Shown piece by piece: positions 16,088-22,183 of a stretch of DNA of 64,000 bases. Origin of the DNA: Corallococcus coralloides DSM 2259 (lineage in GTDB: Bacteria; Myxococcota; Myxococcia; Myxococcales; Myxococcaceae); the NCBI RefSeq assembly GCF_000255295.1, contig NC_017030.1:2728001-2792000 (forward strand). The letters are read 5' to 3'. The position numbers and the translations under genes were made by a program. Under the pieces are notes generated by a model. That model was given only the letters and a program-made list of their open reading frames with translations, searched no databases and was not told where the DNA came from. Positions within the stretch are counted from its first letter, which is position 1. Each line of letters opens with the position of its first letter.

Positions 16088-17521
16088 ATGCTGGCTGAGC
16101 GCTACCCCTACTACCTGGCCAACCGGCCGATGCAGCCCAACGCGGAGCTGCCCGTCACCGACAAGTACACAGGGGAGGTCGTCACGCGCGTGGCCGTGGC
16201 GGACGCGGCCGCAGTGGAGGAGGCCATTGCCGCGGCGGTGCGCGCGACGGGGCCCATGCGCAGGCTGGCGCCGTATGCCCGGCAGCAGGTGCTGGAGCAC
16301 TGCGTGCGTCGCTTCCAGGAGCGGGCGGAGGAGTTCGCGCTCGCGCTCTGCATCGAGGCGGGCAAGCCGCTGCGCGACGCGCGGGCGGAGGTCACCCGGC
16401 TCATCGAGACCTTCAAGGCCGCGGCGGAGGAGGCGGTGCGCGGCGGCGGCGAGGTCCTCAACCTGGAGGTGTCACAGCGCACGGCGGGCTACCGGGGCTT
16501 CACGCAGCGCGTGCCGGTGGGGCCGTGCTCGTTCATCACGCCGTTCAACTTCCCGCTCAACCTGGTGGCGCACAAGGTGGCGCCCGCCATCGCCGCGGGC
16601 TGCCCCTTCGTCCTCAAGCCGTCGGACCGCACGCCGGTGAGCGCGCTGCTCATGGCGGAGGTGCTCGCGGAGACAGCGCTGCCCGAAGGCGCCTTCTCCG
16701 TGTTGCCCACGCGCCTGGAGGATGTGGGGCCCTTCATCGAGGACGACCGGCTGAAGCTGTTGTCGTTCACCGGCTCGGAGAAGGTGGGATGGGATTTGAA
16801 GGCCCGCGCCGGCCGCAAGAAGGTGGTGCTGGAGCTGGGGGGCAACGCGGCCTGCGTGGTGGACGCGGACCAGGCCGGGCGCCTGGACTTCGTCGCGGAC
16901 CGCATCGCCCAGGGAGCCTTCTTCCAGGCGGGGCAGAGCTGCATCTCGGTGCAGCGCGTGCTCGCGCACGAGTCGCTGTACGACGCGCTGAAGGAGCGGC
17001 TCGTCGCGAGGGCGAAGGCCCTGCGCGCGGGCAACCCCCGGGACGAAACCACCACGCTGGGGCCGCTGATTGACGAGCCCGCGGCGCGGCGGCTGGAGGG
17101 ATGGATTCAACAGGCCGTGGAGCGGGGGGCCCGGGTGTTGACGGGAGGAGGGCGGCGAGGCGCGCTGCTCGAGGCCACCGTGCTGGAGGGTGTGCCGGAG
17201 GACGCGGCGCTGTGCGCGGAGGAGGCCTTCGGTCCGGTGGTGCTGCTCCAGCCGTTCCGCGACTTCGACGAGGCCCTGAGCCGGGTGAATGACAGTCGTT
17301 ACGGCCTCCAGGCGGGACTCTTCACCCAGGACCTGTCCCGGGCGATGCGCGCCTGGGATGAGCTGGAGGTGGGCGGGGTCGTCGTCGGTGACGTGCCCAG
17401 CTTCCGGGTGGACACCATGCCGTATGGCGGCGTGAAGGGCTCCGGACTGGGCCGCGAGGGCGTGAAGTACGCCATCGAGGACATGACGGAAGTGCGGCTG
17501 CTGGTGCTCCGTCAGGGGTGA
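16088..17521 (+). CDS. Aldehyde dehydrogenase family protein
   Basis: A 477-residue NAD(P)-dependent aldehyde dehydrogenase. General base Glu249 lies in VVLELGGNA and nucleophile Cys285 in FFQAGQSCISVQR; the nucleotide-binding FTGSEKVG precedes them, and the C-terminal segment PYGGVKGSGLGREG is intact. The ATG at 16088 is chosen over the one at 16058 because AAGGAGAGGAACCCC lies directly before it, almost the same leader as upstream of the preceding gene. Length is normal for the family. It is co-directional with the thiamine enzyme and probably under the same LysR control. The aldehyde is unknown; sequence features resemble the glyceraldehyde-3-phosphate/succinate-semialdehyde type branches only loosely. 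Confidence 0.9.
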   Translation: MLAERYPYYLANRPMQPNAELPVTDKYTGEVVTRVAVADAAAVEEAIAAAVRATGPMRRLAPYARQQVLEHCVRRFQERAEEFALALCIEAGKPLRDARAEVTRLIETFKAAAEEAVRGGGEVLNLEVSQRTAGYRGFTQRVPVGPCSFITPFNFPLNLVAHKVAPAIAAGCPFVLKPSDRTPVSALLMAEVLAETALPEGAFSVLPTRLEDVGPFIEDDRLKLLSFTGSEKVGWDLKARAGRKKVVLELGGNAACVVDADQAGRLDFVADRIAQGAFFQAGQSCISVQRVLAHESLYDALKERLVARAKALRAGNPRDETTTLGPLIDEPAARRLEGWIQQAVERGARVLTGGGRRGALLEATVLEGVPEDAALCAEEAFGPVVLLQPFRDFDEALSRVNDSRYGLQAGLFTQDLSRAMRAWDELEVGGVVVGDVPSFRVDTMPYGGVKGSGLGREGVKYAIEDMTEVRLLVLRQG

Positions 17522-17582
17522 GTCGCCAGGTCTGCCTTCGTACAGGGGAGGCAACACAAAAAAGTTGCTAGGCTCTTTGTCG

Positions 17583-20500
17583 ATGACCGAGCCATCGCCT
17601 TCCCTGGAATCGGAGAATGCTTCCATCGTCACACCGACGGAGGCCCCTGACTCAACTGATGGCGACCAGAGAGACCGAGGTCAGGAAGCCGCGCGCGAGC
17701 CACCAGGGCGTGGCATGCAGCACCAGTTCTCAGCGGCCATCCTTGCGACGCCCTGGCAGGAGATACTGGGAACGCTGCCCGTTCGGGTCGCGAATGCACT
17801 GCGCCGAGCAGGCCTGACGACAGTCGGTGACGTGGTGAGCTGGCAAGCTCAGGGGGCGGAAACATCCAACTTCGGCCGGGTTTCACGGCGAGCGCTTCGC
17901 GACGCACTGGAGCGGCTTCCAGTCATCGAGGTTGCCGCGGATGAAGGTGCCGTCAGCACGCCGCGCCAGGATCAGGTGATCAAGCAGGCGTTGTCGCAGC
18001 GCGGGATTGTCCTCACCCTCCCATGGGCCAAGGCAATGCCTTCGATGTCCAAGGCCACCCAGCGATTCCTGGCCTCGGCGAACGCCGTGACACTCGAAGA
18101 TGTGTTTCGGGTGTTGACGTCCCGTGACGACGTTCAGGACCAGGCCTCCAACGAGACATCGATTGGGCCCGGGGATGAGCTCCTGCGGAGCCTGGAAGCC
18201 CTGGCGTATGTCGGGCTGCCTCAGGGTGTCTCACCCGTGATGGATGGGGCGGCCTCGATTCCAGCACATGCCTTGCTGGAAAGTGCGTTGAGCGCGCTGC
18301 GAAACGAAGTGCGCCTGCCTCTTGAGGCTCGCTTCTATCAGGGGCTGACGCTGGAGGAGATTGGACTGGAGGGTGTCGGGAAGGAGGGCCAATACACGCG
18401 CGAATATGCCCGGCAGCTTGTCTTGAAGGGGTTGAAGGCGCTTCGGCACCAATGGGGGGCACGGATGCGACATGCCCTCGGCTCTCTTCTGCCTGAGATG
18501 GAAACAGCAGGTGGGCTGTTACACGTGGATGAGGTCGCGAGCGTGGCGGGTGCTTCGCCCGCTCAAGTTCGCCTGATGCTGACCATCGCGGGTCCGAACG
18601 AGGTTGAATTTCGTTTGGATGATTTCCTCGTTGATGCCCGTGTAGGGCCCTTCCAGAAAACGCGTTCACGCCTTGCGAAACGTCTCCAGGATAATGCGCT
18701 TACGGGCGTGTCGCCGGAGGACTTGTCGAGTCACTTTGAGCATGCGGAGGGATTGCGACTCACTCCGGCCGTGGCGGAGCGCCTTGCAGCGAAGCTCACT
18801 CCTTTGCAGGCTCTTTCCAACGGGAGATGGGTCGCGGCGGCAGCCAGGCTTCCTCAACGCGTGGGTGAATTCATGCGGCTGGCCACCCAGCCCATGCGGT
18901 TGATTGAAATCGCCGAAAAGCTGGGCATAGACGCGGCCGGGAATGACGAGGAGGAGTCAGGACCATCCGATCTGGATGACGCCAGTGTGCTGACTGCTCC
19001 TTCTGACCAGGAGGAGCCACAGCCATTTCGAGTCTTGCAGAGCATCCTTCTTCGCAGTCCCGAAGTCTTGCTCTGGGATAAGTCCGTATACGGTCATCAA
19101 CGCCTGCTGACGCTTACCGCTGACGATGTCCTTGCGGTCAAGGCCTGGTGTGTTCGGAAAATCGAGAATCAATCGGGGCCGTTTTCAACAGCGGCCCTGC
19201 TTGATGAGATGCGCAAGGATGGCCTCGGTACGGGGAATCTGAACCCGTTCAATCTTCGGTCGATTCTCGGGCGGACCCACGGCTTCGTTGGACTGCGCAA
19301 GAACTGGGTTGGTTGGGCCGCCACTTTCAAACGTGAAACCCTCACCCTGGCCCACCGCTTTCCCGACATTGCCCAGGACTGGCACCCCACTCGCAATGGT
19401 TCGCTTACAGCTGGAGACGTCTTTAGCACCAGCACGAAAAAGCACTGGTGGATTTGCCGTAAGGACGCCTCGCATGAGTACGAGGCATCCATTGGAAGTC
19501 GCACTCAACAGGGCAATGGATGTCCTCGATGCAACCGCGGATGGACCGTCGCCAATGTGCGCTATTTCGTAGCCTCATTGATCGAGCATCTGGACGCATT
19601 CACGCCAGCCGAGCTCTACCTCCTGTTTCAGCAGAACGGGCTGTTTGATAGCAAAGCCCGAAAGATCTTCGCGCGAGCCCTTTCGACAGGGCGGCTGCCG
19701 CGCACGGAACTCGAGAAGTTCTCGCTCGGTCAACCGTCGTCGATTGACACGCTTCTCGCTGCGGTTGGCGATTCAGAGGATGATTCTGTCGCCGCCGGGG
19801 GAGAAGGCTCAAGGAATGCGGTGAGGACGGCTGAAGGGGGGAACAGAGAGCTCGTCGAGCCAATATCCCGCGAGGATCTCGGGGAACTTCAGAGCGAGGA
19901 CCTTCCAGCGGTCGAGACGCAGGTCGTCCTGCGTGCGTTGGACACAAGGTTGATCGTGAGCGCTGATGAGGAGGCCGTTCAATTCCTCATTGCTTCGGGG
20001 CTCTCGAAGCTCTGGAAGCATGCCTTCGTGGACGAGGCGGGCGCCGTCGCCCAGGCCGAGCAGCACAAGGGTGCTGGATACTCCACGGAAGTCCGTGACC
20101 GCTTCCTGCAGGAGTATGGGGAGGCGAAGGCGCTTACGATTCCTTCGGGCTACGCATTCCGGGTTGATGGAAGACTCGCACCGCCCAACCTCATGCAGCG
20201 CTTCGTTGCCGCACGCGTGCGTGATCGACGCCGCGTGGGCAATTGGTCTGGCACTGGTGCGGGCAAGACACTGTCAGCGGTGCTTGCCAGTCGGATCGTC
20301 GAGGCACGCCTCACCGTCATCTGCTGTCCGAATGCCGTCGTGGAGGGTTGGGCAAGTGCCATCATGGCGGCGTTTCCCGACAGCGTCGTCGCAACCAAGA
20401 CGTTCGTGCCGCCGTGGGCCCGACTCGCGGGGGATGAGACCGGCATGGCGGGGGGCGCTGCGCGCCCACGTTATCTGGTGCTCAACTATGAAAAGTTGCA

Positions 20501-22166
20501 GCAGCCTGACTCGGATGGACTGATTCACGCGCTCATTGAGCGGGAGAGCATCGACTTCGTCATCATCGACGAAGTTCATTTCGCGAAGCAGCGCAACGCG
20601 GAAGAAATGTCGCTGCGCAAACAGCGGCTCGCCGCGCTTCTGTCCTGTGCGGCCCAGCAGAATCCGGGACTTCGTGTGCTGGGGATGTCGGCGACGCCTG
20701 TCATCAACAACCTGCAGGAAGGCAAGAGCCTCGTCGAGCTCATCACGGGCCTGCAGTATGATGAGCTTCGAACGCAGCCCACCGTGGCGAACTGCATGGC
20801 CCTTCATCAGCGCCTTGTGACAATCGGGACGCGATGGATGCCGGAGTATGGCCTTGAGTATCGAGAGGTCAGAGCGGAGGTAGACTGCAGCGCTCAGTTG
20901 GATGAGGTTCGAGCGCTTGGGACGAAGGGCAGCCCCCTCGCTCTCGAGCAAATCCTGACCCGAGCACGCCTGCCAGTCATTCTCGAGCACATCCGCCCGC
21001 AGACCGTCATCTACACCCACTTCATTGATGGTATTGGCCGTGAGCTTGAGGAGGCCATCACCCAAGCCGGGTGGAGCGTGGGCTTCTACACGGGAGACGA
21101 CAAGAGTGGGCTCCAGCGCTTTCTCAGGCGAGAGGTTGACGTCCTGATTGGCACGGCATCCATTGGCACGGGTGTGGATGGTCTGCAGTTCGTGTGCAAT
21201 CGTCTCATCGTCAATGTGCTTCCCTGGACGAATGCCGAGTTCGAGCAACTCAAAGGCCGCATCTATCGACAGGGGCAGGGTGAGAGGGATGTGACGCTGG
21301 TTCTCCCTCTTACCTATGCGGAGTTGCCGGGCGGAAGATGGTCTTGGTGCGGTTCGAAGATGGACCGCCTCAACTTCAAGAAGAGCGTGGCGGATGCAGC
21401 AGTGGATGGAGTCGTGCCCGAGGGGCACTTGCGCACGCCGGAGCAGGCATACCAGGATGTCATGAGCTGGATGGCGCGGCTGGATGAGGGGCGCATTGCT
21501 CAGGTTGAGCGGACACCCATTCATGCGCCTTTGTCTCCCCTCATGCCCGAGGAGACCTCGCGTCGCTCTGGCTACGGGGATTTCTCCCAGATGAATGGGC
21601 GATGGAATACAGCCGCCAGTGCCACGACGCACGAGCGTCTGGCGGCGCATCCAGAGGAATGGTCTCAATACCACGCGCTCTATCGAGCGGCACGTGCCGA
21701 CTGGCAGCTCACCCCCGTCGAGGAGGTGATTCGCTGGTGTTCCCAGCGCTCCGACTATGTCGTGGGAGATTTCGGGTGTGGCGAGGCGCTCCTCGCCCGG
21801 GCGCTCGAAGGCCGCCACACCATCCACAGCTTTGACCACGTCGCCATCGACGACCGCGTTGTCGCGACAGACATCTCTCATGTCCCACTTGCGGATGGCG
21901 TCCTTGATCTTGCGGTATTCTCACTCTCTCTCATGGGCGCCAATTTCACGGACTATCTCCGTGAGGCGCGCCGCACGTTGAAGCTGGACGGCCACTTGCA
22001 CATCTGGGAGGCGTCGTCTCGCTTTGCAAGTCTTGAAGAGTTCAATCGAGGGCTCTATCGCCTGGGGTTCGATGTCATCCGTGCGGAGCCTCGCTGGAAG
22101 TTCACGCACATTCATGCGATCAAGACCTCACGTGACGCTGTCCCAGGTACCCTCCTCCAATTCTGA
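17583..22166 (+). CDS. Alpha-CTD/sigma4-like HTH - zinc ribbon - SNF2-type helicase - Rrp8-like methyltransferase fusion
   Basis: A 1527-residue cytoplasmic protein. Residues ~63-110 (NALRRAGLTTVGDVV ... NFG) resemble the helix-hairpin-helix C-terminal domain of RNA polymerase alpha. Residues ~245-291 (GLTLEEIGLEGVG, REYARQLVLKGLKALR) resemble sigma region 4. Residues ~610-655 form a zinc ribbon (Cys625, His631, Cys647, Cys650; WICRKDASHEYEA, GCPRCNRGW) of the type fused to restriction-like nucleases. A superfamily 2 helicase follows: motif I GTGAGKT (Lys895), motif II DEVH (996-999), motif III SATP (1036), motif VI GRIYRQGQ (Gly1225-). Residues ~1385-1525 are an Rrp8-like SAM methyltransferase (DFGCG 1396-1400; SLSLMG 1447-1452). 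ATG 17583 chosen; TTG 17565 possible. GC is lower than in neighbours, suggesting transfer. Role unknown. Confidence 0.85.
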   Translation: MTEPSPSLESENASIVTPTEAPDSTDGDQRDRGQEAAREPPGRGMQHQFSAAILATPWQEILGTLPVRVANALRRAGLTTVGDVVSWQAQGAETSNFGRVSRRALRDALERLPVIEVAADEGAVSTPRQDQVIKQALSQRGIVLTLPWAKAMPSMSKATQRFLASANAVTLEDVFRVLTSRDDVQDQASNETSIGPGDELLRSLEALAYVGLPQGVSPVMDGAASIPAHALLESALSALRNEVRLPLEARFYQGLTLEEIGLEGVGKEGQYTREYARQLVLKGLKALRHQWGARMRHALGSLLPEMETAGGLLHVDEVASVAGASPAQVRLMLTIAGPNEVEFRLDDFLVDARVGPFQKTRSRLAKRLQDNALTGVSPEDLSSHFEHAEGLRLTPAVAERLAAKLTPLQALSNGRWVAAAARLPQRVGEFMRLATQPMRLIEIAEKLGIDAAGNDEEESGPSDLDDASVLTAPSDQEEPQPFRVLQSILLRSPEVLLWDKSVYGHQRLLTLTADDVLAVKAWCVRKIENQSGPFSTAALLDEMRKDGLGTGNLNPFNLRSILGRTHGFVGLRKNWVGWAATFKRETLTLAHRFPDIAQDWHPTRNGSLTAGDVFSTSTKKHWWICRKDASHEYEASIGSRTQQGNGCPRCNRGWTVANVRYFVASLIEHLDAFTPAELYLLFQQNGLFDSKARKIFARALSTGRLPRTELEKFSLGQPSSIDTLLAAVGDSEDDSVAAGGEGSRNAVRTAEGGNRELVEPISREDLGELQSEDLPAVETQVVLRALDTRLIVSADEEAVQFLIASGLSKLWKHAFVDEAGAVAQAEQHKGAGYSTEVRDRFLQEYGEAKALTIPSGYAFRVDGRLAPPNLMQRFVAARVRDRRRVGNWSGTGAGKTLSAVLASRIVEARLTVICCPNAVVEGWASAIMAAFPDSVVATKTFVPPWARLAGDETGMAGGAARPRYLVLNYEKLQQPDSDGLIHALIERESIDFVIIDEVHFAKQRNAEEMSLRKQRLAALLSCAAQQNPGLRVLGMSATPVINNLQEGKSLVELITGLQYDELRTQPTVANCMALHQRLVTIGTRWMPEYGLEYREVRAEVDCSAQLDEVRALGTKGSPLALEQILTRARLPVILEHIRPQTVIYTHFIDGIGRELEEAITQAGWSVGFYTGDDKSGLQRFLRREVDVLIGTASIGTGVDGLQFVCNRLIVNVLPWTNAEFEQLKGRIYRQGQGERDVTLVLPLTYAELPGGRWSWCGSKMDRLNFKKSVADAAVDGVVPEGHLRTPEQAYQDVMSWMARLDEGRIAQVERTPIHAPLSPLMPEETSRRSGYGDFSQMNGRWNTAASATTHERLAAHPEEWSQYHALYRAARADWQLTPVEEVIRWCSQRSDYVVGDFGCGEALLARALEGRHTIHSFDHVAIDDRVVATDISHVPLADGVLDLAVFSLSLMGANFTDYLREARRTLKLDGHLHIWEASSRFASLEEFNRGLYRLGFDVIRAEPRWKFTHIHAIKTSRDAVPGTLLQF

Positions 22167-22183
22167 GCAAGGAATAATCCGTG

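Follow-up and report, generated by a model that had tools for sequence, protein, structure and literature searches.

The gene at 17583 to 22166 on the forward strand of the window (the whole 64,000-nucleotide stretch of Corallococcus coralloides DSM 2259 DNA analysed here) encodes a genuine single-chain fusion of a sigma region 4-type helix-turn-helix, a likely alpha-CTD-like domain, a DUF4379 zinc ribbon, a Swi2/Snf2 motor and an Rrp8/nucleomethylin (NML)-type methyltransferase. Its product, P0001, is read without interruption from an ATG at 17583 to a stop codon ending at 22166, and an in-frame TTG lies upstream of the start, at 17565. A chance fusion or a frame error joining two genes, the latter raised in the preliminary description, is ruled out because the same fusion recurs at many loci of several phyla. 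We propose that the P0001 family represents a one-chain, target-directed, ATP-driven nucleic-acid methyltransferase of the genome conflict between host, plasmid and phage, a reading to which we give about an even chance. The features are located as follows (residue numbers refer to P0001).

17531..22178, no strand: newly acquired segment, absent from the slot in a sister species; borders good to roughly +/-20 bp
17583..22166, forward strand: whole gene of the fused protein P0001, 1527 aa; open reading frame and homologous fusions
17775..17912, forward strand: likely alpha-CTD-like domain, residues 65-110; Pfam PF03118 below cut-off and conservation in the homologue G119
18285..18449, forward strand: sigma region 4-type helix-turn-helix, residues 235-289; Pfam and profile against PDB
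19368..19538, forward strand: DUF4379 zinc ribbon, residues 596-652; Pfam, E 5e-18
19539..20129, forward strand: family-specific helical linker from zinc ribbon to motor; conserved in A1/A3, helical in the model
20130..21416, forward strand: Swi2/Snf2-type ATPase motor, residues ~850-1278; Pfam, AlphaFold model and structure comparison
20250..20270, forward strand: motif I, GTGAGKT (K895); G, G, K and T invariant in 23 members
20568..20579, forward strand: motif II, DEVH (996-999); D and E invariant in 23 members
20688..20699, forward strand: motif III, SATP (1036-1039); S, T and P invariant in 23 members
21255..21278, forward strand: motif VI, GRIYRQGQ (1225-1232); both arginines invariant in 23 members
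21558..22163, forward strand: Rrp8/NML-type methyltransferase, residues 1326-1527; Pfam, PDB and fold
21768..21782, forward strand: SAM-binding motif DFGCG (1396-1400; D1396); sequence, member alignment and NML alignment
21921..21938, forward strand: Rrp8 signature SLSLMG (1447-1452); aligns with the same motif of NML

All the domains named in the preliminary description were recovered by Pfam, profile or structure, the alpha-CTD weakly, and the six motifs lie where it had placed them. The C-terminal domain is matched over its full length by Methyltransf_8 (Rrp8, PF05148; residues 1327-1502, E 9e-43) and carries both the SAM motif and the SLSLMG-type signature. It matches PDB 2zfu with an E-value of 2e-31, or 6e-49 by profile, and its model superimposes on human NML/Rrp8 with a Z score of 26.8 (2.3 Å, 199 residues, 36% identity). 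Motif I of the methylase is nearly invariant across 23 members from bacteria and phages. The motor is matched by ResIII (residues 872-1039, E 5e-7) and by Helicase_C (residues 1134-1231, E 8e-5, just short of the cut-off). The AlphaFold model of residues 575-1527 (mean pLDDT 79) contains two RecA lobes with motifs I-VI in a Snf2 fold, and its motor superimposes on that of INO80, a Swi2/Snf2 protein, with a Z score of 30.8 (2.7 Å, 372 residues). Judged by structure, the SNF2 assignment is right despite the higher Pfam score of ResIII. At the N-terminus, the Pfam matches to RNA_pol_A_CTD (PF03118) and Sigma70_r4 both have an E-value of 2e-4, under the curated cut-offs. A three-sequence profile brings the sigma region 4 match against PDB sigma factors to 5e-9, which makes the call firm. 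The alpha-CTD assignment combines the sub-threshold match with conservation of the region in G119 and is likely, not proven; residues ~141-207 may hold a second, degenerate copy. AlphaFold modelling of the N-terminal 686 residues from two sequences gave an unusable pLDDT of 33, and the structural evidence therefore does not decide on the alpha-CTD or on residues 290-590. Structure prediction, the check suggested earlier, bore out the Snf2 and Rrp8 portions. Pfam recognised no nuclease family in the chain, in which residues 290-590 have no assigned domain.

In the proposed mechanism, an exchangeable front would bind a particular nucleic-acid target and thereby set specificity. The front of P0001 would be an alphaCTD/sigma4-type DNA-binding module followed by one zinc ribbon, its place in relatives being taken by an array of zinc ribbons or INT_rpt units. 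The motor would hydrolyse ATP and then move along or remodel the bound duplex, presumably double-stranded DNA since it is of Snf2 type. The Rrp8-type domain would then methylate a base on the bound nucleic acid, most likely adenine, because adenine is the base methylated by Rrp8. A further DNA mark probably comes, in one clade, from a separate MmeI/DrmMI-like enzyme that is nuclease-dead.

The family comprises 14 cellular or plasmid members and members on 18 IMG/VR contigs. The first scan returned nine chromosomal loci in records titled Verrucomicrobia/Limisphaerales, Planctomycetales, Alphaproteobacteria, Deltaproteobacteria/Polyangiaceae and Acidobacteria, and tblastn found three plasmid members, one in Crinalium and two in Rhodococcus. 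G119 is a second genome from the taxonomic family of the window genome that has a member, with a core 65% identical to that of P0001 and the same alphaCTD/sigma4 front. The IMG/VR contigs (12, then six more; 16-379 kb, with identical copies on some) have among the neighbours phage-type genes encoding homing endonucleases, NAMPT, QueC, DNA ligase and endolysin. Terminase-like matches, some of them weak, occur on 4 of the 11 contigs tested, so that the phage label mainly reflects the collection's classification and the neighbours. One IMG/VR member, L038, clusters among bacterial members in the core tree and could be DNA of a host or a prophage. Among 50,697 records of cultured phages there was no family member, the matches being to generic helicases and zinc ribbons. 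PF05148 was surveyed phylum by phylum, in that of the window genome (189 genomes), that of L001 (388) and that of L006 (392). A full Rrp8 domain was never seen outside the fusion in these ~970 genomes, and there was none in 14 control genomes. The remaining matches were weak and partial (E above 1e-12, ORFs of 243-438 aa), in keeping with generic class-I methylases. The surveys thus place the family at well under 1% of sampled genomes. Its rarity and its presence on plasmids and in large phages suggest a weapon or marking device of genome conflicts that has so far gone unrecognised. An IS1595-type transposase gene lies directly upstream of two distant phage members (L042:7089-8018 and L046:6648-7604; 91% identical). 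The methylase of L008 has a frame break at L008:12778-12780, where an error of the metagenome-assembled genome and real decay look alike.

Comparison of the members reveals that the motor and methylase are constant and the N-terminal front varies. Arrays of about four to seven DUF4379 units occur in L001-L003, L011-L013 and L038. The front of L042 is an array of a DUF723/DUF4379-like unit, with similar ones by eye in L041, L043 and L048; L040 and L046 have INT_rpt (PF14882) arrays, and in L082 and L085 the arrays look mixed by eye, with one unit type first and then the other. The alphaCTD/sigma4 module is found in the window gene, G119 and L006. The four front types require five changes on the maximum-likelihood core tree, where three is the minimum possible; on that tree, the alphaCTD/sigma4 front could still have arisen just once. 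Since most members have repeat arrays at this position, the front appears to be an exchangeable recognition module rather than a polymerase tether, and the polymerase-type domains do not characterise the family as a whole. These observations bear on the possibility of a transcription-coupled RNA methyltransferase, in which the sigma4/alphaCTD module would keep the protein close to promoters or to RNA polymerase, the motor would act on the complex like RapA or Mot1, and the Rrp8 domain would write m1A on nascent or ribosomal RNA. Rrp8/NML is an rRNA m1A enzyme that modifies N1 of an adenine in helix 25.1 of 25S/28S rRNA (PMC6085284). The DUF4379 relatives with solved structures in PDB are mitoribosome proteins, the sigma4 module is well supported, and Mot1 and the CSB motor bound to Pol II are among the Foldseek matches. 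However, the polymerase-type module is missing from most members, the patchy and mobile distribution and the phage carriers are unlike a housekeeping RNA enzyme, and one clade has a DNA methyltransferase as its linked partner. We therefore consider this explanation unlikely, at perhaps one chance in five.

Close relatives point to exchange of the array as a unit. In close Verrucomicrobia pairs, the array is 51-67% identical with saturated synonymous changes, whereas the remainder is 86-95% identical. Between L001 and L003, the array has 53% amino-acid identity and a pS of 0.76 (saturated), against 94-95% and 0.29 for the linker, motor and methylase. In 30-codon steps, their third-position differences amount to 53-77% in most of the array and 3-27% past residue ~490. 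The changeover falls at residues ~430-490, and conservation is again better over the first ~60 codons. The L001-L002 and L002-L003 pairs show the same contrast, L004-L009 a milder one (pS 0.44 in the array and 0.24 in the remainder), and in L012-L013 no array swapping was seen (0.65 versus 0.67). Because synonymous divergence is raised in the array alone, replacement by recombination, and not merely fast protein evolution, is indicated. The pattern fits a specificity cassette exchanged by recombination, with the array presumably serving in recognition. L040 (8375-12604) has eight head-to-tail, near-identical INT_rpt-like repeats of 66 aa that vary at a few positions (34, 35, 38, 46 and 59) and look like a code-bearing array. 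A bolder form of the conflict reading would make methylation itself the weapon: the array, carrying a readable recognition code in its repeats, would find foreign nucleic acid, the motor would open or track it, and the Rrp8 domain would write N1-methyladenine, blocking pairing and hence copying or transcription without a nuclease. We regard this version as a long shot.

At least one phage member has no methylase domain (L047, 8282-12532). It is followed by a gene that by eye is UV-damage-endonuclease-like, with genes for ATP-dependent DNA ligase and radical SAM proteins nearby. Its lack of a methylase implies that the motor may have a separate job. Together with the frequent work of Snf2 proteins in repair, this setting near ligase and UV-endonuclease-like genes would fit an accessory helicase of the ordinary kind, serving recombination or repair and carrying a fused methylase of minor importance. 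Such a role is hard to reconcile with the methylase SAM motif kept in nearly all other members, with arrays swapped between close relatives and with the rarity of the family, and it is the least probable of the explanations considered.

The neighbour genes of relatives provide further clues. In four loci of one clade (L004, L005, L008 and L009), the gene immediately upstream encodes an MmeI/DrmMI-like DNA methyltransferase of ~1070-1100 aa; that of L005 is cut off by the contig end. The partner matches MmeI (PDB 5hr4) with an E-value of 4e-38, and the PADLOC profiles for type IIG and DrmMI with 7e-222 and 5e-69, respectively. We read the position of the D-X9-EXK nuclease site of MmeI off the alignment. 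It is replaced by A, E-V-A in L004, by A, H-V-A in L009 and by A, D-V-V in L008, and the alignment thus places loss of the nuclease site in all three copies that contain this part, which is missing from L005. DPACGSG and NPPM are retained in the L004 partner. In L009 the partner gene has a frame break (L009:7971-8104), where assembly error and decay again look alike. A search at E 1e-10 revealed no MmeI-like gene in the window genome or G119. An AAA_16/nSTAND ATPase gene lies directly downstream in L009 and L038. No neighbour is conserved across the whole family, the MmeI-like gene being restricted to its clade, and PADLOC kinase-type matches among 94 neighbour ORFs were taken as generic. The loss of the nuclease site in the partner, the lack of a recognised nuclease domain in P0001 and the carriage of members by phages and plasmids would also suit a protective or epigenetic mark, with mobile elements methylating their own DNA at chosen sites to shield it from restriction or set expression, without attack. 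Simple protective methylases, however, need no Snf2 motor, the gene in the window sits by itself on a chromosome, and L047 is methylase-less; we hold this alternative to be improbable to the same degree as the RNA enzyme. The proposed conflict methyltransferase may act on DNA or on RNA: DNA is suggested by the motor and by the MmeI-like partner, RNA by the Rrp8 domain and by the DUF4379 relatives of known structure.

The gene has been horizontally acquired in the window genome, as the preliminary description had supposed from its low GC. The GC content is 0.58-0.63 inside the gene and ~0.67-0.71 over most of the flanks, and the gene is absent from 15 congeners. Conservation of the left flank stops at 17515-17530, and the next resident gene is alignable again from 22179 in L028. 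At the empty site of a sister species (G010), window position 17515 is joined to 22846 with 43 bp between. The adjacent P0002 (22181-22828) is not a partner of P0001: in G004 it is present (84% identical) between symporter and subtilase genes, without a P0001-type gene. The newcomer therefore amounts to a single gene (~4.65 kb, lower GC), and neither a tRNA nor attachment repeats nor a recombinase was found at the segment edges. In other congeners the slot contains a symporter, subtilase or hydrolase gene; it is a strain-variable spot rather than a defence island, and the P0001 gene stands alone in it. P0003 (22847-23917, reverse strand, 356 aa) has a sub-threshold match to papain-like peptidase families; it belongs to the same variable slot and is missing at the site in G013. 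Elsewhere in the window, P0004 (8238-11573, forward strand, 1111 aa) matches nothing significantly in Pfam, NCBIfam or PADLOC; its GC3 is below that of its neighbours, and its first ~150 residues resemble a HEPN-type helical domain by eye only. Patchiness, carriers, cassette exchange and, for part of the family, conflict-type neighbours favour a purpose in conflict; the gene's solitary and ordinary setting in the window detracts from it. With regard to the one-gene anti-phage system suggested earlier, relatives are themselves phage-borne.

We found no description of the fusion in the open-access literature searched. If the proposed function is true, it adds a helicase-methylase conflict protein with specificity in interchangeable repeat arrays and chemistry in an Rrp8 domain. 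This domain has so far been studied as a eukaryotic ribosome enzyme, and bacterial Rrp8 would gain a concrete, testable setting. Natural array swapping between near-identical enzymes makes the target of each array directly testable.

In DISARM, BREX and ARMADA, helicases act beside adenine methylases of MmeI-like fold (PMC9142583, PMC11842806, PMC12458937). DISARM, to which the helicase-methyltransferase pair had been likened, combines the Snf2 helicase DrmD with the MmeI-like adenine methylase DrmMI. The likeness extends to the Snf2-type motor, for which DrmD is the best-scoring PADLOC helicase profile (5e-7, weak and over part of the motor only), and, in the one clade though not in the window genome or G119 at E 1e-10, to the adjacent DrmMI-like gene. 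It ends at the DrmD NCBIfam equivalog (26.5 bits against a cut-off of 610) and at DrmA, DrmB and DrmC, none of which was recognised by Pfam, PADLOC or NCBIfam among the window neighbours; around relatives, the PADLOC search of the neighbour ORFs was read from the best 25 families. Here, moreover, the motor shares its chain with an Rrp8-type methylase and a repeat array. ARMADA places a BrxHII/RapA-like Snf2 protein (ArmA) beside a PglX-like methylase (ArmB; PMC12458937), that is, a Snf2-type motor beside a nuclease-less MmeI-fold methylase as here, and the BrxX/PglX of BREX (PMC11842806) is likewise an MmeI-fold methylase without nuclease, as is the linked partner. Their other subunits were not recognised here, where a single chain carries an RNA-type methylase. 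The family is thus DISARM/ARMADA-like in parts and not a member of DISARM. The match to MzaA of the MZA system reaches 15 bits against an NCBIfam cut-off of 800 and is confined to the sigma4 part. With Rrp8/NML, P0001 shares the methylase fold and signature motifs; the eukaryotic enzyme is not known to have a Snf2 motor or a repeat array. Neither P0001 nor the partner in L004, L008 and L009 has the recognisable nuclease of nuclease-bearing restriction-modification enzymes. Single-chain restriction enzymes of the MmeI type (type IIL/IIG) and of type ISP combine recogniser, motor and methylase as is proposed for P0001, with a homologue of MmeI linked in one clade and the methylase of P0001 drawn from another family.
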